From Adineta ricciae (Eukaryota; Rotifera; Eurotatoria; Adinetida; Adinetidae), in assembly GCA_905250025.1 (NCBI GenBank), contig CAJNOJ010000188.1, positions 124,001 through 188,000 on the forward strand: a DNA stretch of 64,000 bases, read 5' to 3'. Within the stretch, counting starts at the first letter, position 1. Each line of letters begins with the position of its first letter. Below, in pieces: positions 36,773-60,820 of this stretch. A model generated the notes under the pieces. It made no database searches. It was not told the DNA's origin and was given only the letters and a program-made list of their open reading frames with translations. The position numbers were made by a program, and so were the translations under genes.

Positions 36773-37430
36773 TTACGAAATGAAAGAGGTACACTCTCGT
36801 TTTGTCTTTTTGTCAAGTTCATCCAGACGTTTCAGTTCAGCGTCTTGAGCAAGAGAAGGTCGTACTGGTAGAACCTTCATATCAAAAGGTCGAAGAATGA
36901 CTGTATCTTCCGCTCTCTTCACCCTGCTGAGTGGTACATATACTGACGCCACTTGCAATGTCTGAAGTGGAACTTGAAGATCGACTACAATTTTGTTCAT
37001 TGTGAGTCCATACGCTTCATATGTAGTTATTGCGTTCGTGTGACTTGAATGATTTGTGAAATTTTTCTCCCATTTTGTACTCGATCGAGCAGATGTCCGA
37101 AAAGTTGCCTTATACGTAGGAACAGTGAATTGCTTCTTGATTAATGGAATAGAAATTAGTTTGGGACGAAGGCCATTGAGATTTGTTTCTACTTGTGATG
37201 CATTCATTTCTACGAGTGCATATAATGGTTTTCGTATGTAGATTGCACTTGAAGGAAATATTTCGCTTTTTATCTTGAAATCGCTCGGATCCTCCTGATC
37301 GTCGTATATGAGCTCTCGAAAAATGCCTTGAGTACCATTGGAAAGCCCTGTCTCACAGGCATGTTTGGTACCAGAGGTAAACGACCAGGAAGAAGTTCCG
37401 TATTGTTGGCAGGTATATGGAGGTTAATTC
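36773..37430 (-). pseudogene. PIF1/Helitron-type helicase C-terminal remnant
   Basis: The minus strand reads LLPGRLPLVPNMPV, a PIF1-like stretch. A frameshifting deletion near 37360 follows, then GLSNGTQGIFRELIYDDQ and, further on, YEAYGLTMNKIVVDLQ (motif V-like) and VYVPLSRVKRAEDTVILRPF (motif VI, LSRV), ending at a stop at 36773. This order is typical of the helicase of Helitron transposons or a PIF1 paralog. Walker A/B motifs and the Rep domain are absent. Its 3' end is duplicated in inverted orientation to the left. Confidence 0.7.
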
Positions 37431-40400: not shown

Positions 40401-40444
40401 AAATCAGATATTCCAAATCTCTTCCACCAAAACATCAATCTTAC
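37431..40444. other. 3-kb gene-poor region
   Basis: Only short unrelated frames, none resembling a family I know, and AT-rich with scattered microsatellite-like runs. A TATATATA stretch at about 38987-38995 is not followed by a convincing gene. It may hold the 3' part of the neighbouring LRR gene near 40400, but I cannot define exons there. Confidence 0.45.
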
Positions 40445-42920
40445 TACATTCCTACGCAACGCGTCCGCAATGTACTCTGCTGCTTCAGCACTGATTTGGT
40501 TATCGACGAGATCGAGTGTGGTGAGTGTCTGTATGTGGGAGAGAGACTAAGTACTTCACCTTACGTAGAATGAGATCAGTATTACCGTGTTCGTTCGCAA
40601 CGCACCCGCAATGTGTTGTGCTCCTTCAGCACCGATTCGGTTCCAATTGAGGTCTATTGTGGTGAGTGCCTATATGTGGGAGAGAGAGTGAGTACTCCAC
40701 CTTCCGTGGAATGAGATCAATACTACCGTGTTCGTCCGCAACGCATCCGCAATGTGTTGTGCTCCTTCAGCACCGATTGTGTTATATCGGAGGTTCATCG
40801 TGGCGAGTGTCTGTAGGCGCGAGAGAGTCTGAGTACTTCACCTTCCGTGGAATGAGATCAATATTACCGTGTTCGTTCGCAACGCATCCGCAATGTGTTG
40901 TGCTCCTTCATCACCGATTCCGTTATACTCGAGATGTAGTGTGGTGAGCGTCTATAGGTGCGAGAGAGAATGAATACTTCACCTTCAATGAAATGAGATC
41001 AATATTACCGTGTTCGTTCGCAACGCATCCGCAATGTGTTGTCCTCCTTCATCACCGATTTCATTAGCGCGGAGTTTTAGCGAGGCGAGTGTCTGTTGGT
41101 ACGAGAGAGACTGAGTACTTCACCTTCGATGAAATGAGATCAATATTACCGTGTTCGTTTGCAACGCATCCGCAATGTGTTGTGCTCCTTCACCACCGAT
41201 TCCGTTGTTGTTGAGATCTAGTGTGGTGAGCGTCTGTAAGTGTGAGAGAGAATGAATACTTCACCTCCGATAAAATGAAATCAATATTACTGTGTTCGTT
41301 CGCAAGGCATCCGCAATGTGCTGTGCTCCTTTAGCAGCGATTGTGTTCGCGGCGAGGTTTAGTGTGGTGAGCCTCTGTAAGTGTGAGAAAGAGTGAATAC
41401 TTCACCTTCCGTGGAATGAGATCAATATTACCGTGTTCGTTCGCAACGCATCCGCAATGTGTTGTGCTCCTTCATCATCGATTGTGTTATTTCGGATGTT
41501 CATCGTGGCGAGTGTCTGTAGGTGCGAGAGAGACTGAAAACTTCATCTTCCGTGAAATGACATCGATATTACCGTGTTCGTTCGCAACGCATCCGCAATG
41601 TGTTGTGCTCCTTCAACACCGATTCTGTTGTTGTTGAGATCTAGTGTGGTGAGTGTCTGTAAGAGTGAGAGAGACTGAGTACTTCACCTTCCGTGGAATG
41701 AGATCAATATTACCGTGTTCGTTCGCAACGCATCCACAACGTGTTGTGCTCCTTCACTACCCATTCCGTTGCTGTTGAGATCTAGTGTGGTGAGCGTCTG
41801 TAGGCGCGAGAGAGAATGAATACTTCACATTCCGTGGAATGAGATCAATATTACCGTGTTCGTTCGCAACGCATCCGCAATGTGTTGTGCTCCTTCATCA
41901 CCGATTTCGTTATCACGGAGGTTTAGCGTGGCGAGTGTCTGTTGGTACGAGAGAGACTGAGTACTTCACCTTCCGTGGAATGAGATCAATATTACCGTGT
42001 TCGTTCGTAACGCATCCGCAATGTGTTGTGCTCCTTCAGCACCGATTCGGTTCCAATTGAGGTTTATTGTGGTGAGTGTCTATATGTGGGAGAGAGAGTG
42101 AGTACTCCACCTTCCGTGAAATGAGATCAATATTACCATGTTCGTTCGCAACGCATCCGCAATGTGTTGTGCTCCTTCACCACCGATTCCGTTGCTGTTG
42201 AGATCTAGTGTGGTGAGTGTCTGTAGGAGTGAGAGAGACTGAGTACTTCACCTTCCCTGGAATGAGATCAATATTACCGTGTTTGTTCGCAACGCATCCG
42301 CAATGTATTCTGCTCCTTCAGCACCGATTCGGTTACACTCGAGATCTAGTGTGGTGAGCGTCTGTAGGTGCGAGAGAGAATGAATACTTCACCTTCGATG
42401 AAATGAGATCAATATTACCGTGTTCGTTCGCAACGCATCCGCAATGTGTTGTGCTCCTTCACCACCGATTCCGTTGTTGTTGAGATCTAGTGTGGTGAGC
42501 GTCTGTAGGTGCCAGAGAGAATGAATACTTCACCTTCGATGAAATGAGATCAATATTACCGTGTTCGTTCGCAACGCATCCGCAATGTGCTGTGCTCCTT
42601 TAGCACTGATTCTGCTGGCAGGGATGTTTAGTGTGGTGAGTGTCTGTAAGTGTGAGAGAGAATGAATACTTCACCTTGCGTGAAATGAGATCAAGATTAC
42701 CGTGTTCGTTCGCAACGCATCCGCAATGAGTTGTGCTGCTTCATTACTGATTATGCTACCGCCGAGGTTTAGCGTGGTGAGTGTCTGTAGGTATGAGAGA
42801 GACTGAAAACTTCACCTTCCGTGAAATGAGATGAAGATTACCGTGTTCCTTCGCAACGCATTCGCAGTGTGTTGTGCTTCTTTAGCACCGATCACGTTGA
42901 GGGTTAGTTCGGTGAGTGTC
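40445..42920 (-). repeat. About 18 tandem 140-bp units, each one LRR exon plus its intron
   Basis: Each unit on the minus strand has an 84-bp exon (TLTTLDLxxNGIGxEGAQHI, then ADALRTNT) and a 56-bp intron starting GTAATATTGATC and ending CTACAG. Landmark TTACCGTG on the plus strand recurs at about 40583, 40734, 40865, 41006, 41147, 41288, 41427, 41568, 41710, 41850 and onward to 42838. Introns are as similar as exons. Confidence 0.88.
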
Positions 42921-43460
42921 TACATGAAAGGAATATATTATGAAAGGGGCAAGTAGCAAAGAAAACCTTTGATGACACTTCCGACTGTATATGTGTGATA
43001 TGAGGGTGAGGGTGGGAATGAATATAGGCGTAGACCGAGAAATCGTGGAGAGCAGTTTGCTTCGTTTGGGAGGGTTGATCAAAAGTGATAGCTGATGCTC
43101 TTTTGTATCGAATAGCTCAACATATATAGGAGAAAGGCGAGAGAGTGGGGGGGAATGCTTGATTTCATGACTTCGCACTGTGAGTGTCTTATTTGAGCAA
43201 TTTATTTGCGGACTATGAGATTACTTGCGGCTTCTTATGAAGAAATTTACGACGTTAAATATCATTAGGCTTATGTGTAGTACAGCGGGCAAGAATGCTA
43301 AGGTGTCATCAAGTAAACTTACTCGATATCGTCTATAGGTGCTGAGGATCTGATTAAGCCGCCGGGAAGTATTTTGCATTGAACAAAGTAGCGTCTTCCC
43401 ATTTTGATGATCCATAATTCGGTAAACAAGTTCGACGGGTAATGTGGAAAACGTGTGCAT
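40445..43460 (-). CDS. F-box/LRR protein with one exon per leucine-rich repeat
   Basis: The first exon (43460-43323, 46 codons, ending at GTAAGT) encodes an F-box: MHTFSTLPVELVYRIMDHQ and LLCSMQNTSRRLNQIL. Then come about 18 phase-0 exons, each coding a 28-residue ribonuclease-inhibitor/NOD-type LRR. The first recognisable one is shorter (26 codons, 42920 region) and the last (TLTTLDLVDNQISAEAAEYI) is more diverged. One or more exons between 43322 and 42921, and the C-terminus left of 40445, are not resolved. F-box plus LRR implies a substrate receptor for an SCF (SKP1-cullin) ubiquitin ligase in the cytosol or nucleus. Repeat number probably varies between alleles. Confidence 0.7.
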
Positions 43461-44541
43461 GTTGTATTTCAATCGTGTAGCAGACCGTACCGTAGAGACT
43501 GGAAGCGATGAAAAATGTTTGACTTTGTTTGTTATGAGTAGTAACTCATGGGGGTGACGTATTTATATATGTTTTTGAGGAAAACAAATGACGTGTAATC
43601 ATTTCGACAGTAACGAATTGTTGGCGTGCGCAGAAAGATGGCGTTAGAATACGCATGCTCATGAAATTCTGTTTTGACATTTAAAATAGAAGTTTTAAGA
43701 ATTAAAAGTAGAAAATATTTTATGCCTTTGACTGCTTTGCAACTCTGTAAAAAAACCGGGCGATATTGAAGCATAAAAGGTTTTCGCTAGCGACTAAAAT
43801 CTTTTATGGTTCTAGATTTGGGTACCATCTTCAGAATCTTTTGGGTTCTAGCAAAGAAATCTGAAACCTTTTCTAGTTCGGCACATTTGGCTAAAACCAA
43901 AAAAGGTTCTGAAAAAGGTACCGAGAAAAGGTTCAGTATGACCCGATTTTTTTTACAGAGAAGCCGATTCGATTTTCTTCAAAAGAAACTGACACCTCGA
44001 AATTAAATTTTTTAGCTAAAAAGTATAGTGTAAGTTAAAAAAACTCTACAGCTTACATTAGAGATTTATTCCGATTATGTAAGTTTTGTTTTCGAGAACA
44101 CTAAATGCCACCAAGTCAGTTTTCACTGGTTGTTTTGCACCATTTGACGTTTTTCAGTAAAAAAAAACACATGACCGTAAAAATTTTCACGATATAGTTT
44201 GCTGAGAGCTTCATGCAGCATCTCTCATTGTGTTCGTTTCATTCTTCCCAAGTCTTATTCGATGATAGATAAAAGAAACAAGAAAAAAAGATCGTTTGTC
44301 AACCTGAAAAACCAGTCGCATGATCTTATTTCTTTTTGAAGCTACAAAATAGAAAATTGAGCTACGGTTTACCGCAAGGGTGACGTTAACTTGAACACTT
44401 AAAGTTAAGTTAAATTGCCACTCCTAAAATATATATATCTTTTTTGTGTTGAGGAGTGAGTTAGAACACTCAGCATCTTTTACATAAATAGAATGCCAAC
44501 TCCCTCACCGAGGTGCTCTAACAATTCGTTGTGAATTCATT
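43461..44541. other. Intergenic up to the duplication boundary
   Basis: No gene. At 43766-43945 there are repeated AAAGGTT/GGTTCT words in both orientations, perhaps a small decayed repeat. Near 44390-44520 related words (GAGTGAGTTAGAACACTC, TTGAACACTTA, CTCACC) sit next to the block-B boundary at about 44542. Confidence 0.4.
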
Positions 44542-44808
44542 TTGATACAATTCATGTGTTTGGCAGTAGCGTATATAATTTTTATTTTACCTTTCGCAAT
44601 TGTAAGACTATTAATTACAGTAGGAATCACAAGTTTCAACGCGAATGTTTCATTTTTTCTTTTTGACATGACAAATGTACTTTCAATAGTTATATCCTGT
44701 GCAATGGCGGTTTCATTACCAAATTTGCGGCAAAAACTTCGTACGTTAGTATGTCATAAACCAACGGAAGAAAATGTCTTTATTTTAACGTATCGTGCAC
44801 GACCATAA
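44542..44808 (+). pseudogene. 3' third of the 7TM receptor gene (TM6, TM7, tail)
   Basis: 88 codons matching the C-terminus of the gene at 2048-2998 (FILPFAIVRLLITVGIT, NVLSIVISCAMAVSLPNLRQ). Upstream of about 44542 similarity stops, so TM1-TM5 are missing. Truncated by the block boundary rather than by decay. Not expected to be functional. Confidence 0.85.
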
Positions 44809-45316
44809 CGACAGTTTCGCGATTATCTCATTTTTAATTGATTCTCCGTTTCATGAATTGTGAGCTAAAAATGCTTGAGCTATGTTTTGAAACATATCGC
44901 ACGCTTTAGCAATCCTCAAATACCTCTCAAATTACTACTGAAATACATTGTACATGACAGACATTTCGCAGAAAATCTACATCGACAGAATTTTGTGTAC
45001 ATTCCATAGTGTCGATGCTACATTGAGAGTGAGTGCGGATTAAACATTGCTTTTACTTTCTTTTGTTGCTCTGTACGTGGAGTATCGCACTTCAAACGAA
45101 CAACAGAACAACATTAGCCAAATATACAAAAAGTTTCTTCGACAATAAAGAAGAGATCAGCAATTGAAATAAAAAGGTTGTTTTTCATCTTCTTGGAGAG
45201 AAAAAAAGGTGTGCTTCTCTTCATCTTAAACTGTCGTTGACTGCAACAAAAACTTCTTTGCTTTTCAGTGTGTCGATTTGCATCCACAACAAAAGTACGT
45301 TTATTGAAATAATCAC
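44809..45316. other. Intergenic, 5' flank of ART-TPR gene 1 (copy B)
   Basis: Counterpart of 2999-3577, shorter by about 70 bp. No gene. Confidence 0.5.
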
Positions 45317-48300
45317 ATGGACAAAGATCTCTCGATACGATCTGAAAATCAAAATAACATGCAGCAGGCTTGTGTTCGAAGTTTCCATGTACTTTGGTTG
45401 GATGTATACCATGATGAATCTAATCGGCAGATGAGAAACGCAATTGTTGGGCTAAGTGACTTCGTTGATGGAATTACCTTACTCGATGATGTGGATGAAT
45501 GTCGCGATTTCTTTGAACATAGAAAGACTGAAACAATATTCATGATCGTTTCGGACGCTTTGGCACAGCAAGTCATTCCGAAAGTTCATGGGATGCGTCA
45601 GCTGCACTCGATCTACGTCTTTTGTCTTAAGCAGTTGCCTGACGAACGAATGTTGAATACATGGTCGAAGGTAAAGGAAGCTACTCCGCAACTTACCTTC
45701 ATCTGCGAGTCAATCAAACGAATCATACAACAATATATTCAGGATACAATTTCCATGAGTTTCACTTCAACAAACGATCTTATCGATGAAAACGATCAAT
45801 CATTCATGTATATGAAAATATTGAGAGATATTCTTCTTGACAGGAATTATGATACTCGTGAACAATCACTCGACACATTTACTTCGTACTGTCGTCGTAA
45901 CAATATACTGACAAGTAGCATAATCGATTCTTTTGAACATGATTTTACCAATCATACACCTATTTGGTGGTTTACGAAGCGATGTTTTCTTTCTTTAGTA
46001 CTCAATCTTTATATGTACCGTCAAGATGTCAAAGGTATTAAAAGCATGAATGTCTTTATTCGAGCTTTACATCAAGAAATACAAACACATCACGAGCAAC
46101 AGCAAAAGGAACATCCACAAGAATTCATTGTTTACCGAGGCCAAACTATGTCACAAGAAAACTTTTCTACGATGATGAAATCGACGAAAGGATTACTATC
46201 ATTTAATAATTTTCTATTGACAAAGACGAGTAATAAGGATGCTTTTATCTATGCACAGCATGCTCTGAAAAGTTCCAATTCAATCGGTATCGTCTTCAAA
46301 ATGAAGATCAATCCATTAATTTATTCTCGACCATTTGTTCGTCTCGATAATGCCAACAAGGGAACATCAGAATACCTATTTTCGTTGAACACTGTTTTTC
46401 GTATTGATGAAGTACAGCAGATCGACAATGATACCCGCTTGCGGCTAGTGGAATTGACATTAGTGGATGTCGAAAATACACAGTTCAGTAACCTGAGCAA
46501 GAGAATAGACGAAATGCTTGACGAATCGAACGGTTGGGAGCGATTGGGAAAATGGTTGATAAAGATGCAAGATTATGATAAAGCCGAGCAAATGTATCTT
46601 GTTTTACTCGATGAAACTACAGACAAGAAAAAACAGGTGATCTATTTAGAAATTCTTAGTAAAATTAAAAAGAATCAAGATAAATGGAGGGAAGCCATTA
46701 CGTTCTATAGCGAAGCTATCAACATCAAGGAAAAAGTTCTCAGTCCGAACGATTCCAATTTAGCTGAATCATACAACAATATTGGTCATATGTATGAACA
46801 TATAGGTGACTATCCTAGAGCACTTTCGTCCTATCAGAAAAGTCATGGCATTCACAGTAATATTCTCTCGTCAAACTCTGATGAACTCGCCGATTCGTTT
46901 CACCAACTGGGAGTAATTCATGAGAAACTCACCGATTATTTCAAAGCACTGTCGTTTTATGAACAAGAGTTAAACATACGACAAAGTACAGTTCCTGTTG
47001 ATGAATCTCGCATTGCTCGTTCGTATGATAGCATTGGTTCAATATATGAAAAACTTGGCGACTATTCGAAATCAATGTCGTTTTTACAAAAATCGCTGGA
47101 TGCTCATGAGAATACGCAGCCTTCGGATGCGAGTGACTTGGCTCGTTTATATTACAATATCGGCTGTACGCACGACCATATGGGGGAGTATGGTGAGGCT
47201 CTGAAATGGATTGATAAATGTCTGAATATTCAAAAGATGAATTCGTTTCTCGATCAATTATCGCTAGCTACAGCGTATGACAGATATGGCATGATTAATG
47301 ACAAAATGGGTCAATATTCCAAGGCTTTTTCCTTTGTTAAGAAAGCATTCGATATACGAAAAAAATTCTTAGATGCGAATCATCCTGATATACTTACTTC
47401 GTACAACAACATGGGTATACTATTTATTCGAATGATCGAATATTCGAAAATGTTCACCGCTGATGAGTTAGCGCAGAAACGAGAGTACTGCTCATTGTTC
47501 TTGACGGACAGAGACACCAGTTATCCAGTACACGACATGAATGAGTATCTTGAAGCACATCAATTTATTCAGAAAGCTTTTCAAATTCGTCAGACAGTGC
47601 TACCTTCCGATCATCTGGATATAGCCGACTCATGGAGTAGTATTGGATTAGTGTCGATAAAGGCAGATCAATATGCAACAGCTTTGTCTGCCTACGAAAC
47701 AGCAGAGCAAATGCGTCGAAAACTTTTATCGGCAACGCATCCGGAATTGATTCCATTGTACAATTCTATTGGGCTCATCCATACAGTGAATGATGAGTAT
47801 GCAAAAGCGTTTACATATACTGAAAAAGTTATCGAAATTTATCAGAAATCTCTTTCTCCAAATCACCCATACGTAGCAACTTGCTACAATGTTATAGGTT
47901 TCACTTATGCTAAAATGGAGAAATTCACTGAAGCAATTTCACACTTGGAAAAAGCGATTTCGATTTACAAGAAATATCTTTCTCCCAATCATCCAGATTT
48001 GTCTACTACGCTGAACACAATTGGACTAGTACATTACAGAATGAATGATTATTCTAAAGCCCTTCCAGCTTTTGAAGGTTCATTGGAAATTCGTGAAGCA
48101 AAACTGCAACGCGAACATCCTAATTTGGCGACTACCTACAACAATATTGGATTGGTGCATCTGAAAACAGGCAACTATTTCAAAGCGTTAGAGGCCATGA
48201 AAAAGTCTCTGATTATGCGTGAAGAATCACATGTGTCAACTGACTCCCAGTTAGCTGAATCGTATAGCAACATCGCATTAGTTTATGCGATGATGGATCA

Positions 48301-50041
48301 GTATTCTGAGGTACATTTCTATTTTGAAAAATCTCTTAAGATTCGAAGAAAAAACTCACCAGAAAATCAATCTGATTTCATAACATATAACAATAATGTT
48401 GGTTTAGTTGATTTTAATATGAACGACTATTCCACAGCGTTCATATGTTTGAATAAATGTGTGAAATTGGGCGAGGTGAAGCTTCCTCCCGATCATTGTG
48501 ACTTGGCTGATCTTTATAATAATATCGGCATTATATGCGCAGGTCAAACTGATTACTCGAAAGCACTGTCATTTTTAAACAAATCATTGGAAATTCGAAA
48601 GAAAATCTTACCTTCAAATCATCTTGATTTAGCTATTTCGTATAACAATATTGGCTTGGTTCATCTTCGAACTGATAATTACTCCGAAGCGTTAACATTT
48701 CTGACGAAATCAATCGAAATACATCAGGAAAGTCAACCAATAAACTATCCTGATTTGGCGACAGCGTATAACAATATCGGTTCAACTTATGATCAAATGT
48801 TTGAATATGAAAAGGCCATGCCTTTCTACGAAAAATCATTAGGAATTCGTCAAAAAACGCTTCCATCATATCATACTAATTTGGCTATCTCTTACAACAA
48901 TACCGGCTTGGTATATGCAATCATAGGTCACTATACAGAAGCATGCCCTTTATTGGAAAATGCACTTGACATTCGAAAGAATATCCTACCGGAAAACCAT
49001 TGTGACTTAGCGACGTCTTATAATTATCTTGGGAATGTGTATTCGAAGCTACATCAATTTGGAAAAGCGCTGATATGCTATCATCAAGCAGTGAACATCG
49101 CTGAAATCAATTCAGGCATATCGCCGCCTGATTCCATCGCGTTTCACAACAATATCGGTCTCTTATACTGTCACACAGGTCAATTTTCAAAGTCAATTCC
49201 ATATCTGCAGAAAACAATTGAAATTCATCAAAAATATGTTCCTTCTACGTATTTGGAGTCGGCTATATATTACGAGAATCTTTGTAATGTCTACATCAAA
49301 CTAGAAGAATATTCAGAAGCGCTTTCCTATCAAATGAAAGCACATACAGCCTATGAACAAGCACTTTCCCATCAGCATCCGATGATGGCGAAATCTTACA
49401 AGACGATTGGTTTCATATATGATAACGTCGGTGATTATGTAAATGCTCTTCAAGCTTATCGTGAAGTAGTACATATTCAGGAAGGTATCAATCCACCCGA
49501 CCAACAAGAATTAGCTGTTGCATATAAGAATCTTGGTAATATTTACTCGAAAATGAGCAATTTTTCACGTGCATCGTTCTACTACGAGAAAAGTCTCATT
49601 ATCGATGAAAATACGTCATCGGACAACGATCCAGTCTTGACTAGTAGTTACAATCAACTTGGTTTAATTTCAGAACTCCAAGGCGAACACTATCGAGCGT
49701 GTTCATATTACGAAAAAGCCATAGAAATTTGTCAGAAACAACCCCATCAGAACTCTCGTAATCTAGTCTTATTTTATAATAAGATAGGCAGTGTCTATTC
49801 CAAATTAGATCAGCATGACAGAATAACACCATTGCATACTCGACAATCGAAGAACAAATCAAATCTTCCTGCTCTGGAAGCTCACGATAACACGGATGCT
49901 TTTAAACAGGGAAATATGCTGCAGGGTCCTTTAATGGAAGATTCACCACGACAAATTTCAATTGGCGAACTTCCCTTTCACATTTCGCTTTACTCACAAC
50001 CGGCAAATTGCCCTCATATACGAGTGATGCAACATGCTTGA
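45317..50041 (+). CDS. ART-TPR protein 1, copy B (1574 aa)
   Basis: Same length as the copy at 3578-8302, with no indel and about 5% residue differences. The ART triad is kept (YRGQ; SFNNFL; SEYLF before SLNTVFRI). The TPR array of 25-26 units and the 34-residue insert in TPR 8 (MFTADELAQ...) are preserved. Two intact 4.7-kb frames argue for purifying selection on both, as expected for homologs in use. Substitutions cluster in TPR surface positions as far as visible (for example RTGNYFKAL to KTGNYFKAL). Confidence 0.85.
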   Translation: MDKDLSIRSENQNNMQQACVRSFHVLWLDVYHDESNRQMRNAIVGLSDFVDGITLLDDVDECRDFFEHRKTETIFMIVSDALAQQVIPKVHGMRQLHSIYVFCLKQLPDERMLNTWSKVKEATPQLTFICESIKRIIQQYIQDTISMSFTSTNDLIDENDQSFMYMKILRDILLDRNYDTREQSLDTFTSYCRRNNILTSSIIDSFEHDFTNHTPIWWFTKRCFLSLVLNLYMYRQDVKGIKSMNVFIRALHQEIQTHHEQQQKEHPQEFIVYRGQTMSQENFSTMMKSTKGLLSFNNFLLTKTSNKDAFIYAQHALKSSNSIGIVFKMKINPLIYSRPFVRLDNANKGTSEYLFSLNTVFRIDEVQQIDNDTRLRLVELTLVDVENTQFSNLSKRIDEMLDESNGWERLGKWLIKMQDYDKAEQMYLVLLDETTDKKKQVIYLEILSKIKKNQDKWREAITFYSEAINIKEKVLSPNDSNLAESYNNIGHMYEHIGDYPRALSSYQKSHGIHSNILSSNSDELADSFHQLGVIHEKLTDYFKALSFYEQELNIRQSTVPVDESRIARSYDSIGSIYEKLGDYSKSMSFLQKSLDAHENTQPSDASDLARLYYNIGCTHDHMGEYGEALKWIDKCLNIQKMNSFLDQLSLATAYDRYGMINDKMGQYSKAFSFVKKAFDIRKKFLDANHPDILTSYNNMGILFIRMIEYSKMFTADELAQKREYCSLFLTDRDTSYPVHDMNEYLEAHQFIQKAFQIRQTVLPSDHLDIADSWSSIGLVSIKADQYATALSAYETAEQMRRKLLSATHPELIPLYNSIGLIHTVNDEYAKAFTYTEKVIEIYQKSLSPNHPYVATCYNVIGFTYAKMEKFTEAISHLEKAISIYKKYLSPNHPDLSTTLNTIGLVHYRMNDYSKALPAFEGSLEIREAKLQREHPNLATTYNNIGLVHLKTGNYFKALEAMKKSLIMREESHVSTDSQLAESYSNIALVYAMMDQYSEVHFYFEKSLKIRRKNSPENQSDFITYNNNVGLVDFNMNDYSTAFICLNKCVKLGEVKLPPDHCDLADLYNNIGIICAGQTDYSKALSFLNKSLEIRKKILPSNHLDLAISYNNIGLVHLRTDNYSEALTFLTKSIEIHQESQPINYPDLATAYNNIGSTYDQMFEYEKAMPFYEKSLGIRQKTLPSYHTNLAISYNNTGLVYAIIGHYTEACPLLENALDIRKNILPENHCDLATSYNYLGNVYSKLHQFGKALICYHQAVNIAEINSGISPPDSIAFHNNIGLLYCHTGQFSKSIPYLQKTIEIHQKYVPSTYLESAIYYENLCNVYIKLEEYSEALSYQMKAHTAYEQALSHQHPMMAKSYKTIGFIYDNVGDYVNALQAYREVVHIQEGINPPDQQELAVAYKNLGNIYSKMSNFSRASFYYEKSLIIDENTSSDNDPVLTSSYNQLGLISELQGEHYRACSYYEKAIEICQKQPHQNSRNLVLFYNKIGSVYSKLDQHDRITPLHTRQSKNKSNLPALEAHDNTDAFKQGNMLQGPLMEDSPRQISIGELPFHISLYSQPANCPHIRVMQHA

Positions 50042-50423
50042 GACACCATTTCATAAACGTTTTACATTATTATTAACAAACGAACTTTTTTACCGTCAGA
50101 AAATAAATAAATAAAGAAGAAAAACGCATATTATTTCAACTTTCAGCATAATCACTAATAGTAGTTATCTTCGAGAATGTCATTTACAAAGAAATAAAAT
50201 AGAGAGATGGGCAAATAAATTTAGTTCTCCTCCCTCTCGCGGAAATTGAAGTAAAGAGAATCAGAATAAAACTATCCGTTTATAGAGGACACCTTTCAAG
50301 CGCAGAAAAGAAAAAGGAAAAAAACTTTCCAACGTATAGTGCAACGTAAAGCCATGTGACATAGAAGCCTATGCGAGAAACAGAACACAACAAATTTATA
50401 GTCAATATTCCATCATACAGCGA
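50042..50423. other. Intergenic between ART-TPR genes (copy B)
   Basis: Counterpart of 8303-8692. The ATG at 8627 of block A is replaced (CATAGAAGCC at about 50360), which fixes the start of the next gene. Confidence 0.5.
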
Positions 50424-52370
50424 ATGCTTCAAAACTATCGACTAGTTTGGCTTGACAATGACATTGACAATGTGAAATGTTATGATTCTATTGCACAATT
50501 AAGATCAATCGTCAATACGATCGATATATTTAACGATATTGCTGCATGTTTTGAGCATATTGAAAGTATTAAAGACGAGACGTTAGCATTACTCGTTTCA
50601 AATAAGCTTGGAGAAAAAATAATACCAACTATACACAAGCAATCGAATATAACTGCAATCTTTATCTTTAGCCAAACCGACATCTCCGACAATCGATGGA
50701 TGCAGAAGTGGTGGAAAATACATGGAGTATTCCATGATATATCATCCGTTTGCCAAGCATTGAAGTCTGCTACTTATGATTACAATCAGAGTACAATCGC
50801 AATGAATTGTTCCCGACCGAACAGACTCGATCATGACCTCATTTATACGTTTTTACTAAAAGAAATCTTATCTACAATCAAGTTTGAACACGAGCACAAG
50901 CGTGAATTTCTGAAATACTGTCGCGAACAATATGTCGGCAACAGTATACAATTGAAAAAAGTCGATCAACTTCAAACGGACTATCGTCGACAGGACGCTA
51001 TCGCATGGTACACACATGAAGGGATCTTGTATTCGATGCTTAATGATGCTTTGCGTACACTGAATGTAGATTTAGTTCTCAAGATGGGCTTCTTTATCAA
51101 TGATCTTCATGAACAAATTGTTACTCTTCATTTGCAACAGCATGGTAATCAGCAAGTGGCAGAGCCACTCACTGTATTTCGAAGTCAAGGTGTTTCTCAT
51201 TCAAATTTCGACTTGTTGATGAGAACACGAGGTGGAGTATTATCGTTTAACAACTTTCTGTATACCGATAAGAATCGTGCCGAATCTCTTGATTTTGCCC
51301 GACGAACAATGACTAAATATGACGTAGTTGGCGTTCTTTTCATCGTTACTGTTGATTCTGCAACATCTAAAACTCCATTTGTTAATATTCATATGGAAGG
51401 CGAAGAAGAACAGGTACTCTTCTCTATGCACTCGATCTTTCGTGTTGATCAAATGAAACAAATCAACGGAAATAATCGTCTTTGGCAAGTGGAATTATCG
51501 TTGATGGATAGTTATAAATATTTATCTGATGATAGTATTCAACATGTGCGCAAAGAAATAGAGGGATCAACCGAATGGGTTCGAATAGGAAAATTGATGG
51601 TGAAATTAGGACAATATGATCTAGCCGAAAGCCTTTATCGAAAGATTCTTTTACAAACAAATCAGGCAAAAGCACAAGCAGATTTACTATACCAACTTGG
51701 ATGTATCTATTGTATTCAAGGGAAATATTTCGAAGCATTAGCATCCTATGAAAAAGTATTAAGGATGCGTGACAAATTATTCTCGTCGAAACATCCCAGC
51801 ATTGCCAAGTGCTACAATGATATCGCAATTGTCTATGGCGAAATGAATGAAATCTCAACTGCACTATTCTATTCGGAAAAAGCTATCGAAATATTCGAGA
51901 TAGCCGTTGAAGAGAATCCTTTAGATTTAGCAAATGCCTACGAGATCATTGGAGTATTATGTTCCAAGAGGAATGATTATTCAAACGCACTTGCGTATTA
52001 TGGAAAAGCATTGAGAATCTACCAAAGAACTCTACCTGCAAATGATCCTCAGTTTGCTAATTTGAATACTAACATCGGTTCTGTCTATGCTAGAATGAGT
52101 GAATATCTTACAGCACTGACATATTTCGAGAAAGCACTTGAAATTCAAAGCAAAAGTCTTCCTTCAAACCATCCCGACCTAGCCTTTTCCTATGGACACA
52201 TTGGATTGGCATCGTTCTTTACCGGGAATCACTCAAATGGATTATCGTATTGTCAACGAGCATTAGAAGTAGCCCAACAGTCATTACCGGCAAATCATCC
52301 TCATATTGAAATCTATAAGGCAAATTTAAACTGCATTACATCACAAATGAACGATACTGCACAGGAGTAA
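50424..52370 (+). CDS. ART-like/TPR protein 2, copy B (648 aa)
   Basis: Starts MLQNYRLVWLDND and is collinear with the gene at 8693-10639. It retains VFRSQG, LSFNNF and EEEQVLF, so the Glu-to-Gln change at the catalytic position is shared by both copies and predates their divergence. About six or seven TPRs follow (YNDIAIVYGEMNE, YGHIGLASFFTGN). Function is probably as for the block-A copy: binding rather than catalysis is suspected. Confidence 0.83.
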   Translation: MLQNYRLVWLDNDIDNVKCYDSIAQLRSIVNTIDIFNDIAACFEHIESIKDETLALLVSNKLGEKIIPTIHKQSNITAIFIFSQTDISDNRWMQKWWKIHGVFHDISSVCQALKSATYDYNQSTIAMNCSRPNRLDHDLIYTFLLKEILSTIKFEHEHKREFLKYCREQYVGNSIQLKKVDQLQTDYRRQDAIAWYTHEGILYSMLNDALRTLNVDLVLKMGFFINDLHEQIVTLHLQQHGNQQVAEPLTVFRSQGVSHSNFDLLMRTRGGVLSFNNFLYTDKNRAESLDFARRTMTKYDVVGVLFIVTVDSATSKTPFVNIHMEGEEEQVLFSMHSIFRVDQMKQINGNNRLWQVELSLMDSYKYLSDDSIQHVRKEIEGSTEWVRIGKLMVKLGQYDLAESLYRKILLQTNQAKAQADLLYQLGCIYCIQGKYFEALASYEKVLRMRDKLFSSKHPSIAKCYNDIAIVYGEMNEISTALFYSEKAIEIFEIAVEENPLDLANAYEIIGVLCSKRNDYSNALAYYGKALRIYQRTLPANDPQFANLNTNIGSVYARMSEYLTALTYFEKALEIQSKSLPSNHPDLAFSYGHIGLASFFTGNHSNGLSYCQRALEVAQQSLPANHPHIEIYKANLNCITSQMNDTAQE

Positions 52371-52746
52371 AACTATTCTTCGTGATACTATTCTAATAAA
52401 TGTTTGCATTCATTTGTAAATGAGAAGTTCTTTTTTTTGTGTTGAACTGTGACCTTCCTGCTGTTGGAGAAGTTTCTGAACATTTTTTATGGCGCTCGCA
52501 CGTGTGCAAAAGCTCTTCAAAGACGAGTTGTCGTTCGTCGTAGAACACTTCGATGGTTTATGAATACGAACTGTTTGTTTTCTTTTGTACTCTCACTGCA
52601 AAAATTGATTCTATTTTCAGAATATTAGAAGGTATGACGAATATTGCAATGATGTCATGTTCTGAGTCAGATTATGAGATTTTATATAAATTACTAACTA
52701 CTTATCTGATTTAACCACAAAGTTTGGAATTGATTACTGAACTCCA
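52371..52746. other. Intergenic; nothing recognised
   Basis: Counterpart of 10640-11188, about 170 bp shorter through a deletion near 52688. Confidence 0.5.
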
Positions 52747-53140
52747 ATGTATCTTATTGGCATAGGAGGTAATCTGATGAATATTTTGATCTTCACATGA
52801 TGTAAATTGAGTGATTAGTGCATGTTCGCTGTATTTCATTGCTATTTCTATCGGGCAGATCATTCTTTTCAATAGTTTAGCATTAACTAAAGCTATCGCG
52901 CAGCTAATTGGTGAAGATTACGGTCTAACCATCAATATTCTTTGTAAAATGTGAAGTTACCTATTTATTTTTAGTCTCGGATTAATGTGGCAAATCTTAT
53001 GTTACACTGGTTGGTTTCCAATCGTCGAAAGCACGTGGCTGTATGCATTGTTTTACGTTACACAATGTACTGTCTCCTCTCTAATACCGATTTTGATTAT
53101 TATTTTGTGTAGCGTTTTAAGTGTAAAAAATTTACGTTAG
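52747..53140 (+). pseudogene. 7TM receptor pseudogene, copy B
   Basis: Opens MYLIGIGGNLMNILIFT (TM1 with GxxGN) then a TGA, and later the same TAG as copy A. About 100 bp of the TM3-TM4 region present in copy A are missing. The tail ends VKNLR and TAG as in copy A. The damage is partly shared and partly private. Confidence 0.65.
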
Positions 53141-53717
53141 CGATGACTTCACGTTTTTTCAACCTTGCAACATCAAGGAGAATTGAACTCGATGGCTGTT
53201 ATATTACCTCAACATACTTTACGTCACCGACGAGGGATGCAGTTACGTAGATTGTCACTTTTACAAGTTGCTTTCTACACTAGCTTGCATACTCAAAATA
53301 CATGATTTCTTTCCAATACCATTTTTTTTTACAAATTATCAAACGACAATTGCAGATCAATCTGCTATTGATAGATTTCTTATTATCTATCAATAATTTA
53401 TCAATCATCTAAAGAATATTTCATACTGATATATAGGAGTGCTTCTTTTGATATTGGATGTTGTCTGAAATTTACGCAAATACATAGCTGTAATAAGAAA
53501 CAGGCCCTTTGCCTTTCTGTAAACACGTATTTGTATCGAAAAGATTTTCTCCTCGGACGGATGAAAATTTCGACTCCTAGGTTTCGCACAAACATGCGCC
53601 AGCTATGTCTGAAGCTATTTAAATGGCATTGAATATGTTTATTTCAAAGAATCTAACGCTGGTTTAATGTATAAAAAAACGTATAAAATACAACAGTTCA
53701 TGTCACATATCTGTACT
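53141..53717. other. Intergenic; nothing recognised
   Basis: Counterpart of 11691-12263. Confidence 0.5.
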
Positions 53718-54217
53718 TCATTCCTAAAATATACAAACAGAAAATAAATAATCTAGGAAATTGTAGGAAAAAAAGCACTTACTTTATGTTCGATCTTTAC
53801 ATGAATTTCGCCTTTTGAACGAAGACCTAACAGGGCGGGTAGTTTTATCCACTCGTCAAAAGCGCCTTTGGAAAAATCATGCTTTCTCAGATCAATCTTT
53901 GCTTCGCCAATCGAGTCTTTGCCGACTGCGTCGTCATCATAAACATGAAGATGTAAATCGTCATGATTTCGCGATAAATTGCTACAATATACAACTTATA
54001 AATCAAATCAGATCATCGTGTGAATAAGAAGAATTTACAAGGTGAATGTCTCGTTCCATTGAGGATCGTTGTTATTCTTAATCGTCTTTGTTCGTTGTTT
54101 GTAGTCTTTGTCTAGATAGACTTCGACGAAAGCATCATTTTTGCCAACGATATCTTGATCTTTGAGATGACGGGCTTCGATAATGGTTACTTCAAGTTTG
54201 CCGTGTGAACCACTCAT
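53718..54217 (-). CDS. Small C2-domain protein, copy B (127 aa)
   Basis: Exons 54217-54039, 53981-53783 and a two-codon exon 53723-53718, with the same phases as copy A. Exon 1 differs by a single residue (Thr8 to Lys: SGSHGKLEV). The donor of intron 1 is GTAAAT here and GTAAGT in copy A. The C2 Asp loops are unchanged. High conservation against a diverged flank argues for a working gene. Confidence 0.75.
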
Positions 54218-55010
54218 AATGCTTGTTCGTTCAGGTTATTGTTGAGAATTTTTAGAAAGATTAGTGAATGAAAAAAGACAGTAAATGTTCGATGTATTTA
54301 AATGCATTCGTTTCTTTCCGTTCTTAATAATACGAGAAAAAGAACCTTTTAACTTTTTTGTTATGAGAGAAGCAAAGAAAACGAAGGAGGAGTTCATATG
54401 GTTCCATCGAAAGTAAAAAGAATAACGAACTGGTAGATTCTAGAATACAAACAATACTTTCTTTTTTTTGTCAGCTTCGTTCGTCACTTGAAAAAAAATT
54501 CAAACAGTACTTCTGCGTTCGCGGCAAAACACGTGACCTGTACGATGCTAGCAATCAAGAAGGTTTTTCGGTAGAGCATCAAGATGAACTCAAAGAATTG
54601 TTTTCATTTGCAAGTATCTATGACTAATTATGGCGAATTATTCATCGTGATAATGTCAATCATTGCCATGAAGTTCAAATTATTAACAATGATGATGTAT
54701 GCGGATATTTTCGTGGTTGTCTAATGTTCATGAAAGATTAAAATAGAGAGTTCTTTAGCCAGAATGTAGAGAATAACAAGCTCATTCATTTTCAAAGTCA
54801 ATTATTTCATCAGATCTCAGATAGCTATAAAAAGTGTTTTTTTGCTAACGAGAATAGACTGACATTGACAATAATGAAAATGAGACGATGTATAAACAGA
54901 AGATAGTCAATGGTCAGTGCGATTAGACGTCTCTTTAGATCCTGAGAAGAAATCACATTATCTGTTGCCAATCTTAGTTAAAGAGACCTGTACTTCAAAA
55001 ATGTATCGAA
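54218..55010. other. Intergenic between C2 gene and tRNA-Trp (copy B)
   Basis: Counterpart of 12763-13566. The 86-codon frame of block A is broken here. Confidence 0.5.
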
Positions 55011-55082
55011 GACTCCGTGGCGCAACGGTAGCGCGTCTGACTCCAGATCAGAAGGTTGCGTGTTCAAGTCACGTCGGGGTCA
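55011..55082 (+). tRNA. tRNA-Trp (anticodon CCA), copy B
   Basis: All 72 nt are identical to the gene at 13567-13638 although the flanks differ by several percent and indels. The downstream TTTTT terminator is kept. Confidence 0.93.
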
Positions 55083-56305
55083 AATATACTCTTTTTAGTA
55101 ATTTTACGTAAAAATAATCGTTACATTAGAAGAATTTGTTACATTCGAAAAATAAATAAATTATTAGATGTGAAGCTATTCGTTCACGCTTATACTCTCT
55201 CGATATACGTACATTGCTGTCGTGACGTAGTCAATGAATACACAAGTTGCATATAATATTTTTGGAAAAAAAGATGAAAGACTTCGAAGCTGTGGGGAGT
55301 ATCCTATTAGTGTGCTAATCCTCCATTAAACATCGAACATTGACTGTATCTACAGAAACCAGTTATTCTACTATTAATAAATGATTAAATTTCTAAGAAA
55401 CGAGAATAATCTGAGCGGATAATCGAAAGGAATAGCGTCCAAAAGTATTTGTTTATTCATCTTATATTATTGATATCAAGTCGTGGTTTGAGTTAAAATC
55501 AATTTGTTCTCCTGGTGGTTGTATTTGTCGAACAAATGAACAAGAAAGGCGATCATTTCGTCTGTCTCTACTCACTGATTGGCAATGTCATCGTTCAAAT
55601 ACTACTGGTTCACTGTTTGTAATGAGCATGCAAAAATGTCGCACCGTTTATTTAGCAGTCAGTTACTATCGTTCGAATTTCAATGGCCAAATTCAAATTG
55701 AAACATATTATTAAATGCTAATATTACTACGACGATTGTTGTCCCAGAACAAACGAGTTCCCACTATTTAGTATAGGCGTGCAACGGAAAAGATTAAAAG
55801 AGTTATTGCTTGGTTGAATCGAAAATACATTACATTTTATATTATGATTACAATATTCTTTTGATGACCCACGGACAATTCATCTCACATGTATACTATA
55901 ATCAATTTACATTGAAAAATGATCTTTTCTTGGTTGGCATTGCTGATCTATTGAGTCCTCAAATGAAAAACTCATCATAAGTAGTATGCTACTAAATGGT
56001 GTCCAGACGTCCTTGACTTGATACATGTTAAACTTGTCACACCGGATTTTGTTAATTGTTTACGAACATAGCTCTTTCAGGAGACGCATGTCTCTCTTCA
56101 TTCATCTGTATATTTTCGTAATCTTGTTACAATTATTAAAGTCTGCGATCGATTTTCTCCTTCTGCTTTTTTTTATCAATATTTATGAAGAAAACTCATG
56201 GTAAAGGATCAGAAATCTTAACGTCGAAAGAAATTGCTGGAAACCAGTTTAGAATCATCATGTTTTATTTTTGCATTCTAGAAAATAAAATCGTCATGGA
56301 AATAT
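55083..56305. other. Intergenic; no conserved gene
   Basis: Counterpart of 13639-14939 with many small deletions. The short frames of block A are not preserved. Confidence 0.55.
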
Positions 56306-56833
56306 TCAATAGTTTGATGTATCAAAATCAATTCTCATAACATTAATATTCGATTCACCGTGGCGTAACGTTTCGACGAGGTGATATCCTTGTTTTTCAA
56401 ATAAACCTTGAGCACTTCTCGTCCATAGCCACACATATGTATATTTCAATTCTTTCGCTAGATCTAAGATTTTCCCAATCATGTACTTTGCTATACCTTG
56501 TCCACGATATTCTGGCTTCGTATAAGTACAAGCTAGCCAAGGTGTTGTGTTATAATATGGATTGCCTGGAGATACATCACAAACTTCCAAGCCAATAGTT
56601 GCAATCAGATTCTGACTCTGTTTATCCAGTAGAATCATTAATAAAGGTAGTTGTTTTTCATTTCGAATATAATTCATTTCGGCGTCTTGTATCGCAGCTT
56701 CGAGGGTCAGCAAACCGAATGCATGATAACTATCCTGCCATTCGTTGTAGAATACGTTGCTTACTTCTTGAACATATTCCGGCTTTTCTCGTAAAAGATG
56801 AATTGTATATTTCGCTTCGAAGTCATTACTCAT
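56306..56833 (-). CDS. GNAT-family N-acetyltransferase, copy B (175 aa)
   Basis: Collinear with 14940-15467. The acetyl-CoA loop RGQGIAKYMIG and the EKQGYHLVETL end are intact. A handful of conservative substitutions (FELAKEL to LDLAKEL). Confidence 0.85.
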   Translation of the reverse strand: MSNDFEAKYTIHLLREKPEYVQEVSNVFYNEWQDSYHAFGLLTLEAAIQDAEMNYIRNEKQLPLLMILLDKQSQNLIATIGLEVCDVSPGNPYYNTTPWLACTYTKPEYRGQGIAKYMIGKILDLAKELKYTYVWLWTRSAQGLFEKQGYHLVETLRHGESNINVMRIDFDTSNY

Positions 56834-56987
56834 TTTTTACTCGATTACTTGTGGTGAAAACAACGTATCTGTTGTGCAAGATAACCGACATATGCATGAC
56901 TCATATTCGATCTTTTGACAGATGTCAGTCTTTGACGAAATCTTATTTTATTATATATGGCATGAAAACATTTTTCTTGTGTTTCAA

Positions 56988-58300
56988 TCAATCACGTGGT
57001 CGTCCATATAAAAGTGTGCTGTCCAATGCTTTCCTGTAGAATGCTGGATAATCATTACGATATTCCAGATAACATTCTGGATTATGGCTTCCATTTTTTC
57101 CAATAAACGGACTGTCTATCATTTGAATAATAGTTGACAAGATCGTATGCAATGATAATGTCGGTCTGTAGCTTGAATCTGCAAAGCGAAAGCCACAATC
57201 ACAACCACAACACACACCTGTTTGTGAAATATTCGGATGATAAATTGGATCTAGAAACTGTATGTCAGGATATTTGAAAGGATATTCTGCAGTCAAACCA
57301 ATTCGAATAAGAAATGATGCACGGCAGTATGGCTCACTTTGTAACAGAAGTCGACCTTCAATGGTATGCCGGTAGTGTTCAGACGAACGTACGGTTATTG
57401 GCGTGTTGCTGAAACGTGGTGGTGGTCTATTGGTATCAATAGATTGCCCTGAAACTTTGTCTAATATGAATTTATTTTCTGACTCCAACTTTTTAAGTAG
57501 TTTGATCTCAGCTATTACTTTGCGATTTAATAATACAGGAGAGGCTATAATGATACAAACAAATACGTATTATTTTGTTACGAGTAGATGTATTATTCTT
57601 GATATACCTGAATCTGGAACGAATGAATATTCTCGAGTTGTCAAATGACGTACATATCGAAACCTTGCTTGAAATTTTACTTTATCTTCTTTTGTCGCCA
57701 TTGCTACATTCAAAATTTTCAGACTAGGAGTGCCTGTCCACTTTTCATTGAATGACACGGCCCCAATATCGAGTATTTTACATATTCGAAGACGAGAGAA
57801 TCCGTTCGACAAAAGTATTTCCAACAAATCACTTATCACTTTTAACTTATCTTCCTGTGTGCCATCGAAATCTATTCGGGAAATGAAACAAATAGATGGA
57901 TTAGTACAATGACATCATCGTTTCATTACCTGTGATATGAAGAATCTCAAGATGTGGAAAATTATTTGGTTGGACACTATAGAGCTGCGCACTCGTGGAA
58001 CATTGTAGCGAAAGTGAACGTAGATTGATTAGAGATTTGAAATTGGCTGTGTTAGAGTAACGAATGTCTAACCGATCGACAACAGTTGGAAATACCTGTA
58101 GAACACGAACAGCGTCAATATTGTTGTTTTTAACGCCATGATATTTGTGCCTGACACTGCGAATAACTGAATTGACGAATGAATTGAGATTGAGGAAGGA
58201 TGCCAGAAGTTGTTGAAGTGAGAAAAAAATCAAAGATAAGAAGAATAACTTCGATGGGCAAGTGTTCAAATGAAGCTATAGATTCTATGTTACCACTCAT
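56988..58300 (-). CDS. F-box/ubiquitin-conjugating-enzyme (E2) fusion gene, one-base frameshift in exon 1
   Basis: Exon 1 (58300-57930) encodes the F-box SFEHLPIEVILLIFDFF and an LRR-like region (LINLRSLSLQC). Exon 2 (57871-57608, 88 codons) continues it (GTPSLKILNV). Exon 3 (57544-56988) is a UBC domain: helix NRKVIAEIKLLKK, AEYPFKYPDIQFL, YHPNISQTGVCC (second Cys at the catalytic spot). Introns are 58 and 63 bp, all joints phase 1. Exon 3 has no start codon and its frame upstream is closed by a stop, so it must be spliced to the F-box exons. Exon 1 has seven A (58223-58229) where the copy at 60744-60749 has six; with six, the gene has 397 codons. Predicted role: SKP1-binding adaptor carrying its own E2 module. 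Confidence 0.78.
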
Positions 58301-59435
58301 ATTACAATAATGCTGTAATTTCGACACACAGTGGGTTTTTATACGTAAAATTGAAGAAAAACAAACGTATTTAACCTCTCGCGAAACGCATAACCTGCTC
58401 GTTCTGTCACAAAGCACGTGGCTAACTCACTAACACAAAAAAAAACACTGAATTCTTTTTTCACCATCATTTATCTTAGAACATGAAGTAATAGAACGTG
58501 CAATGTTGTAAACGAAAATCAGCGAACGAAAATTCGAATATAACTTCTTAATTTATGATGTCATGCTTTCCCCGAACAGCACAACCTTGATTTGTACAAA
58601 AGGAAGTAGTTGAGTTAGAAGAAAATAGTATTTACTTATCGTACTGCATTTCTCTTGTACTCAATAGGTAACAAGATTATACTACTTCGTAAAGATGTTT
58701 CATACAATAAAGAAACTAATGATTATCGCAACTAGTACTGTCATTAACCAAATTGCAGAAATAATCGGTCCATTTATATCATGACTGCAGAATAAGCTTT
58801 AACGATTGATGTGTCGATGTATTCGAATAAATTGCCAAATACCATATACAGCAAAAAAAGAACACCAGTAATTGCTAAAATAATATCGGATCTGTTAAGG
58901 TCGTTGATCAGCTCGGCGACGTATCCTTGCACTAGCACAACTAGTTGTCAATATATTTAAACCCATTCGTGTCCCAGATAGGAAGGTTCGTTCGTTCGAT
59001 AGATGAAGTTTCATTAAATTGTTCTCTTGGTTACCTTGAGTACTGCTGCTTTTTAGACTTCGTTGTTGCTTTCACCATCGTTCCTGTGAATGTATGTGCG
59101 TGCGAAGATGCACAAAAAAAAAAGAAAGGCATTATACATCGACATCCTGGACATCACAGGCAGCACCGCAATGCCTATACCACGATAGGAAACAGAATAG
59201 ATCAAAAACTTCTTTTTCTCTCGATAATGAGAAACATAGCTGAGCAGTTCATTTGCTCTACAACTCTAGTTCTTTTGGACATTAATGTAGAGAAATATTG
59301 TCGTTTCTCTCGCTAGAAATATTTTATTTTGTGTGCTAAGGACATAATTCGTTATCACACCCTACAAAGAATCTGACGAAGCAAGCATTTTATCAGTTTG
59401 CATTATATATTACATATTAATTCAGACGCATCGTA
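58301..59435. other. Divergent region between F-box/E2 and kelch genes, with a decayed membrane-protein trace
   Basis: Minus-strand reading at about 58935-58780 gives LVQGYVAELINDLNRSD and a membrane helix (IILAITGVLFLLYMVFGN). A second helix (IISAIWLMTVLVAIISFFIV) lies near 58760-58700 in another frame. The matching stretch at 61650-61490 has a different frameshift. Probably a dead membrane-protein end; family unknown. The plus-strand frame at 58945-59316 looks like 5' UTR noise. Confidence 0.35.
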
Positions 59436-59952
59436 ATGTCGTCTCATGCGACGTGCAACGAATGTACTCCTTTGAATAATAAACCCAAAAATTGGTGGCA
59501 TCATCGTTTGATTAAGATTATTGGGTTCGCATTCACACTGTTAACAATTTCAACGATTTGTATTACTCTCTTCTGGAAATTTAATAATTCTCAACGTGAG
59601 ACATCAACTATCACCAGAACGATCGAGAAGTCAAGTAAGTCTGAAAGTTGAGTTAGACTTAACGAGCTATTTTTTTGTAAGAACAATTACGAACTATCAA
59701 TGTTTACTGTTTAGGATGGTCTCTTACAGGTAGTATGCGCTACGCACGCGGTGGTCATAACGCGATTCTGTTGCATAACAAGAAAGTATTAGTGACGGGC
59801 GGTGCTAATAGTGTTAATCGGAATGATGGTGTTTTGAAGAGCGCAGAACTCTATGATGCATTAAGTAAATCATGGAATCTGACTGAAAACATGGTGAACT
59901 CACGAATTGGACATGCCATAATCATGCTCAATAATAAAACAGTCTTGGCTGT
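59436..59952 (+). CDS. Membrane-anchored kelch protein, 5' part only (cut by the N)
   Basis: Exon 1 (59436-59634) encodes a short cytoplasmic end and an anchor helix (IIGFAFTLLTISTICITLFW). An 80-bp intron follows, then exon 2 from 59715 with the first kelch repeat (RYARGGHNAILL, KVLVTGGAN). The frame then runs into the N and continues as E2 antisense, an artificial chimera. Compared with the intact copy it has three extra residues in the first repeat (SVN). Confidence 0.85.
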
Positions 59953-59953: not shown

Positions 59954-60820
59954 GTATCAATAGATTGCCCTGAAACTTTGTCTAATATGAATTTATTTTC
60001 TGACTCCAACTTTTTAAGTAGTTTGATCTCAGCTATTACTTTGCGATTTAATAATACAGGAGAGGCTATAATGACACAAACAAATACGTATTATTTTTTT
60101 ACGAGTAGACGTATTATTCTTGATATACCTGAATCTGGAACGAATGAATATTCTTGAGTTGTCAAATGACGTACATATCGAAACCTTGCTTGAAATTTTA
60201 CTTTATCTTCGTTTGTCGCCATTGCTACATTCAAAATTTTCAGACTAGGAGTACCTGTCCACTTTTCATTGAATGGCACGGTCCCAATGTCGAGTATTGT
60301 ACATATTCGAAGACGAGAGAATCCGTTCGACAGAAGTATTTCCAACAAATCACTTATCACTTTTAACTTATCCTCCTGTGTGCCATCGAAATCTATTTGG
60401 GAAATGAAACAAATAGATGGATTAGTACAATGACATCATCGTTTCATTACCTGTGATATGAAGAATCTCAAGATGTGGAAAATTATTTGGTTGGACACTA
60501 TAGAGCTGCGTACTTGTGGAACATTGTAGCGAGAGTGAGCGTAGATTGATTAGAGATTTGAAATTGGCTGCGTTAGAATAACGAATGACTAACCGATCGA
60601 CAACAGTTGGAAATACTTGTAGAACACGAATAGCGTCAATATTATTGTTTTTAACGCCATGATATTTGTGTCTGACACTGCGAATAACTGAATTGACGAA
60701 TGAATTGAGATTGAGGAAGGATGCCAGAAGTTGTTGAAGTGAGAAAAAATCAAAGATAAGAAGAATAACTTCGACGGGCAAGTGTTCAAATGAAGCTAGA
60801 GATTCTATGTTACTACTCAT
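59954..60820 (-). CDS. F-box/E2 fusion gene, second copy (E2 part truncated by the N)
   Basis: Exon 1 (60820-60451, 370 nt) is open: SFEHLPVEVILLIFDFF then SLQQLLASFLNLNSF. Exon 2 (60392-60129) and the first 112 nt of exon 3 (60065-59954) follow with the same phases and intron sizes (58 and 63 bp) as in the copy at 56988-58300. The UBC domain is cut after helix 1 (DKVSGQSIDT). Three of four sites that separate blocks A and B in the shared 186 nt match block A, so this is likely the missing 5' part of the gene at 15622-16252. Confidence 0.8.

Follow-up and report, generated by a model that had tools for sequence, protein, structure and literature searches.

A gene joining an F-box/leucine-rich-repeat part to a UBE2L3-like E2 domain in the bdelloid rotifer Adineta ricciae

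Normally, the receptor of a cullin-RING ligase and the E2, the enzyme that carries ubiquitin, are two separate proteins. According to PMC7904520, ARIH1 receives ubiquitin from UBE2L3 in human SCF, and an F-box receptor, a UBE2L3-type E2 and an RBR partner meet on one substrate, the E2 being a protein of its own. UBE2L3 carries His119 in place of D117 and shows thiol-only reactivity (PMC5095918), and its reaction with thiols only is likewise stated in PMC8899012. The closest described system in which an F-box is followed by a C-terminal E2 fold in one protein is Morgue, found in Drosophila and a discrete set of invertebrates, which comprises a zinc finger, an F-box and an E2-variant domain with a glycine for the catalytic cysteine. 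Morgue associates with polyubiquitin and with SkpA, its link to SCF, and substitutions of the glycine, cysteine included, left the over-expression lethality and the enhancement of cell death unchanged (PMC3787007).

The gene described here lies in a stretch of 64,000 nucleotides of Adineta ricciae (contig CAJNOJ010000188.1, positions 124,001 to 188,000), referred to as the window. The initial annotation had described three exons with phase-1 joints and introns of 58 and 63 bp at 58300-56988, all of which were recovered in this gene, named copy A. Its parts, and those of a second, split gene in the window, are as follows.

58300-56988, minus strand: copy A, whole gene, three exons of 371, 264 and 557 nt
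57930..58300, minus strand: copy A exon 1, coding for the F-box and the first leucine-rich repeats (LRRs), frameshifted, 371 nt compared to 370 in the intact copy
58223..58229, minus strand: copy A run of seven T, the frameshift site (6 T in the intact copy, 60744-60749)
57872..57929, minus strand: copy A intron 1, 58 bp, phase 1
57608..57871, minus strand: copy A exon 2, LRR part
57545..57607, minus strand: copy A intron 2, 63 bp, phase 1, at the fusion junction
56988..57544, minus strand: copy A exon 3, with the whole E2 (UQ_con) domain and the stop
57207..57209, minus strand: copy A predicted catalytic Cys codon, counted as 8 residues past the Asn of HPN
60451..60820, minus strand: intact copy, Y half, exon 1, F-box and LRR start (F-box residues about 11-50 = 60790-60671)
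60129..60392, minus strand: intact copy, Y half, exon 2
59954..60065, minus strand: intact copy, Y half, first part of exon 3, which breaks off at the N at 59953
15622..16178, minus strand: intact copy, X half, exon 3 with the E2 domain
15841..15843, minus strand: intact copy, predicted catalytic Cys codon, position by count
16254..59952, no strand: block of 43.7 kb holding copy A and splitting the intact gene, flanked by single Ns at 16253 and 59953

The introns of copy A are of the GT-AG type, and a profile scan placed a UQ_con domain at 57431-57027 of exon 3 (1.9e-14). As had been annotated, the open frame of the E2 exon (57569-56988) begins after a stop and holds no methionine ahead of helix 1; its first methionine lies within IIQMIDSP, beyond the active site. 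The claim of a single gene with F-box and E2 is borne out, the fusion being real; in copy A itself, the extra T shifts the frame inside the F-box and, as sequenced, leads to a stop after 56 codons. This frameshift may be an allelic lesion or an error of sequencing or assembly.

The same structure had also been reported at 59954-60820, and for 15622-16252 the E2 end together with the 63-bp intron. Exons and intron sizes agree with this description, but the two places are not two further copies, since both end at a single N (59953 and 16253), share 186 bp that differ at one position (16067-16252 = 59954-60139) and, as Y half (60820-59954) and X half (16252-15622), join into one intact gene of 396 codons with exons of 370, 264 and 557 nt and introns of 58 and 63 bp. 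In a self-comparison, positions 44543-59952, which belong to the intervening block, aligned piecewise with the outer flanks at 88-97% identity. In the simplest reading of these matches, 16254-59952 would be an allele-like second haplotype that was set in tandem by the assembler; it may instead be a true tandem duplication. A probe from the block (20000-21500) has a partner of 93% identity at C188:98980-100443, and weaker pairs (66-75%) on C267, C333, C719, C459 and C545. The copy pairs on these five contigs, seen with one probe, are each located on the same contig, which is perhaps a systematic habit of the assembly of this genome. Besides, the window contains a tandem array at 40434-42899 with units of about 141 bp that are 80-87% alike in the self-comparison, and a same-strand open reading frame just downstream of copy A (56306-56836) that by eye looks like a GNAT acetyltransferase and whose start recurs downstream of the copy at 15622.

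Elsewhere in the genome, intact fusions were found twice on C199 (copies a and b, 387 codons each; introns of 206/295 and 206/254 bp; same joints and phase) and once on C1005 (393 codons, and 392 if the second of two adjacent acceptors is used; first intron 94 or 97 bp long). The C1005 gene keeps the first joint and phase of the other copies and has no intron 2, LRR part and E2 lying in a single exon with an open frame of 275 codons. F-box, LRR and E2 are hence contained in one open spliced frame in four copies besides copy A, i.e. X+Y, the C199 pair and C1005. As read from these genes, it is near certain that F-box/LRR and E2 form the architecture of one gene, and the retention of one open frame in four copies is more than chance. 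With the E2 as query, the best five among the 68 matches listed were the X half, copy A, the C199 pair and C1005, four of which are immediately preceded by an F-box part in the same orientation, and X regains its F-box only via the join to Y. With the F-box part as query (150 of 338 candidates scored), eight of the nine best matches sit upstream of an E2 or an E2 stump (C199 twice, C396, C1005, Y, copy A and C383 twice), and the ninth, on C182, showed no E2 within the 3.3 kb examined. When viral contigs were scanned with the E2 alignment, 116 pattern matches came up, but not one was confirmed.

Two further pattern searches bear on the taxon. For the bdelloid spliced leader, no exact match, 41 places with one mismatch and three with two mismatches were obtained, compared to none for the reversed control. 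Together with the occurrence of paired copies, this result speaks for a bdelloid rotifer. Many spliced-leader-like copies occur on L053, C6, C8, C43, C77, C79, C99 and C146, frequently arranged as inverted pairs with a spacing of about 150 bp. The telomere repeat, found at 38 places compared to 44 in the reversed control, was uninformative as a taxon mark.

A domain search of the spliced proteins recovered the E2 half, with UQ_con above the cut-off in all three fused proteins scanned (1e-16 to 4.4e-16), but left the Pfam F-box models under the cut-off: the F-box-like model reached at best 20.9 bits (C1005; 20.2 in C199 copy b) against 24.3, and the F-box of the window copy showed an E of 0.017. 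An alignment of the F-box part was built from 20 sequences, four from fused genes and 16 from paralogues, which were chosen from the F-box-part genome matches and have no E2 in the roughly 3.3 kb examined around each. At E up to 0.1, 15 of these 20 members match the F-box-like model (best 2e-6) and nine the F-box model. Compared to the PDB, the family profile recovered FBXL5 (1.4e-5) and SKP2 (5e-4) among other LRR proteins. Like these FBXL-type proteins, the window family (copy A, X+Y and their fused relatives) shows an F-box followed by LRRs, whereas its LRR part is short and continues into an E2. The window protein matches 15 of the 16 paralogues at E up to 1e-5, and C199 a, C199 b and C1005 match all 16 each. 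In nine paralogues the similarity to C199 copy a stops at residues 199-204, where intron 2 separates exons 2 and 3; in six it stops earlier, and in one it continues to residue 237. Judged by these matches, the N-terminal part is a member of the F-box/LRR family of this genome. On C4, C182 and C197 there are several F-box/LRR genes that are related to the N-terminal half and have long open reading frames of about 280-380 codons.

For the E2 half, UBE2L3 (UbcH7) was the best match of known structure, for the fused E2 as well as for the standalone E2 on C51. The window E2 matched UBE2L3 and an engineered form of it best (2e-12), with UBE2T close behind (4e-11), and the C51 protein matched UBE2L3 with 2e-29, followed by UBE2L6 (1.3e-24), UBE2T (1.5e-22) and UBE2D2 (4e-20). 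On this similarity, the fused E2 is assigned to a local UBE2L3-like family. Further likenesses are a YGxxR-like C-terminus and the phenylalanine at the position of UBE2L3 Phe63, kept in all four fused E2s. In contrast to UBE2L3, these E2s are fused to an F-box/LRR part, show low identity, have a further cysteine beside the predicted active one, and keep neither His119 nor Pro88 (4/4, Pro88 by count from the cysteine), the latter a residue with a role in the active site. UBE2L3-like standalone E2s are expanded on C28, C51, C78 and C218 (L017, L018, L019, L021), with arrays on the first three, and an open reading frame next to a standalone E2 (L018, 2292-2798) looks like an E2 variant lacking the HPN motif.

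A cysteine is located 8 residues past the third residue of HPN or HPD in all four intact genes, the motif being HPN in three and HPD in C199 copy b. Since the window copies contain a longer, cysteine-rich active-site loop (VCCGCDCG), their exact catalytic cysteine is given by count only. In UBE2D, D87 is an acidic residue serving direct lysine transfer. The positions of UBE2D D87 and D117 hold no acid in any of the four fused E2s (D87 by count from the cysteine, D117 by the column of His119). Since the His119 of UBE2L3 is not kept either, thiol-only chemistry of the fused E2 would be an argument from the missing acids.

In an E2 tree of 16 rows, the four fused E2s came out as a single clade (100/99), which groups with three standalone E2s (98/97); after omission of one very long row (15 rows), the corresponding values were 100/99 and 100/97. 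Human UBE2L3, represented by partial letters from the PDB alignment, attaches in this unrooted tree between the clade of fused and standalone E2s and the other E2s. The F-box halves form one clade at 93/93 (21 rows), which is below the starred level. A single fusion event is suggested, since it fits both trees. In gene models made by eye, the standalone E2s on C28, C51 and C218 have their own methionine within about one residue of the start of the fused exon.

The C199 pair showed a dN/dS of 0.30, composed of 0.46 for the F-box, 0.42 for the middle part and 0.21 for the E2. By codon position, the differences amount to 8, 6 and 24 in the E2 exon, a clear third-position excess, compared to 10, 4, 11 and 5, 3, 6 outside of it, where there is little such excess. 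Copy A and X+Y gave a dN/dS of 0.33 for exons 2-3, from 24 changes only. Between lineages, dN/dS lies at 0.27-0.33, a rough value at an overall dS of 1.7-1.85, which is near or past saturation, and for the E2 alone dS is undefined in four of six comparisons. The E2 dN between the three lineages of 0.54-0.71 indicates a fast divergence.

The comparison with Morgue points out a shared order and a different composition. The initial annotation had regarded the joining of F-box and E2 as an architecture not yet described, which does not stand, since fly Morgue combines an F-box with an E2 variant (PMC3787007) and the present genome contains a Morgue-like gene as well. In this gene (L052, C22:18000-22000), a CX2CX12CX2C stretch is combined with an F-box (2.7e-5) and with an E2 (1.6e-24) that reads HPNINIHGDIG and has a glycine for the cysteine. 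Compared to Morgue with its N-terminal C4 zinc finger, the window family leaves only about 10-13 residues before the F-box; while the Morgue F-box is rich in tryptophan, typically with five, no tryptophan occurs in the first 50 residues; and the E2 active site shows cysteine instead of glycine, each in 4/4 intact genes or proteins. The window family also has LRRs, and its E2 falls apart from that of the C22 gene: one clade of fused E2s and C22 E2 was rejected with a p-AU of 0.0002 (15 rows, in which the C22 gene stood for Morgue), for a grouping that was named after the first tree had been seen and with long branches present. What is new is therefore restricted to the lineage of the window, namely a separate fusion, the LRR part and the kept cysteine. 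The literature consulted, mostly outside subscription journals, gave no account of this F-box/LRR-E2 fusion.

Altogether, it is assumed tentatively, and with a little less than even confidence, that the protein is an SCF receptor with its own, probably thiol-only E2, which arose by one fusion of an F-box/LRR gene with a UBE2L3-like E2 and would hand ubiquitin to an RBR ligase, e.g. ARIH1. In a single event, the F-box/LRR gene would have lost its last repeats and gained a complete E2 across a phase-1 intron; as read from the sequence, the fused exon appears to begin, within about one residue, where standalone E2s have their start methionine. The F-box would dock the protein on SKP1-CUL1, the short LRR part would bind the target, and ubiquitin would be carried on the cysteine of the protein's own E2 and be passed on, from thiol to thiol, to an RBR ligase, for instance ARIH1. 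This transfer would be the likeliest next step, since the fused E2 is devoid of both UBE2D acids for direct lysine transfer, and it is suggested by the kinship to UBE2L3 and the missing acids, by the Ariadne (6 exon matches) and Skp1 (15 matches) domains found in the genome, and by the human SCF-ARIH1 precedent. The more extensive proposal of a self-sufficient, catalytically competent SCF receptor, whose thiol-only E2 in cis would feed ARIH1 or another RBR on the same cullin and which would have a bdelloid origin independent of Morgue, seems doubtful.

Among the alternatives, the one that survives best, although rather unlikely, is that the E2 part carries no ubiquitin and is a binding module for ubiquitin or a partner that tunes the SCF, as discussed for Morgue. 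The glycine of Morgue, its association with SkpA and polyubiquitin, and the glycine substitutions without effect on lethality or cell-death enhancement provide a model for such a module (PMC3787007). The HPD in one of four intact genes and the fast divergence of the E2 (dN 0.54-0.71) point in the same direction. Against it, the cysteine is kept in all four intact genes, and in the C199 pair the E2 shows the lowest dN/dS of the three parts.

It is quite unlikely that the built-in E2 acts mainly in cis, ubiquitylating the receptor itself or its own SCF and thereby setting its own lifetime. F-box proteins are often turned over by self-ubiquitylation, which favors this explanation, as does the position of the E2 immediately behind the LRR part of one polypeptide. 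However, the absence of acids at the UBE2D D87 and D117 positions speaks against ubiquitin being passed straight to lysine unless an RBR or HECT partner takes part.

Decay is observable in the family, since the relatives on C396 (L024) and C383 (L028, L030) contain stops and miss parts of the E2, which shows the fusion family to be dispensable in part. The frameshift of copy A together with these three decayed relatives could indicate that the window locus is dying and its C188 copies are heading to pseudogenes as well. Nonetheless, this is improbable, as the other allele-like copy is intact once joined, exons 2-3 show a dN/dS of 0.33 (from the 24 changes), and the homopolymer indel may be an assembly error.

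That two neighboring genes, or an accident of assembly or annotation, were read as one is very improbable. The window assembly is broken at the two Ns, copy A is frameshifted, and C199 copy a has a methionine inside helix 1 of the E2. Yet the order is kept in five copies, and the C199 copies show no N within the 5.0- and 5.5-kb stretches read. A separate E2 gene was rejected on account of the window copies, with no methionine before helix 1, and of the single exon of LRR part and E2 in C1005. Orthology to Morgue, although the order of F-box and E2 is the same and Morgue is present in a discrete group of invertebrates (PMC3787007), is the least probable explanation and was rejected, as there is no room for a zinc finger, no tryptophan in the F-box, cysteine instead of glycine, an AU p of 0.0002 for grouping with C22, and in the C22 gene a better candidate.

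If the assumption of a receptor with its own UBE2L3-type E2 is true, it shows that evolution can join receptor and E2, and the protein would be a natural E2-tethered cullin ligase and thus a tethered system for studying the transfer from SCF to RBR. It would further represent a catalytic counterpart of Morgue, whose E2-like part has glycine for cysteine. Within the large F-box and E2 expansions of the bdelloid genome, the gene is also a clear example of a fusion that took place at an intron.
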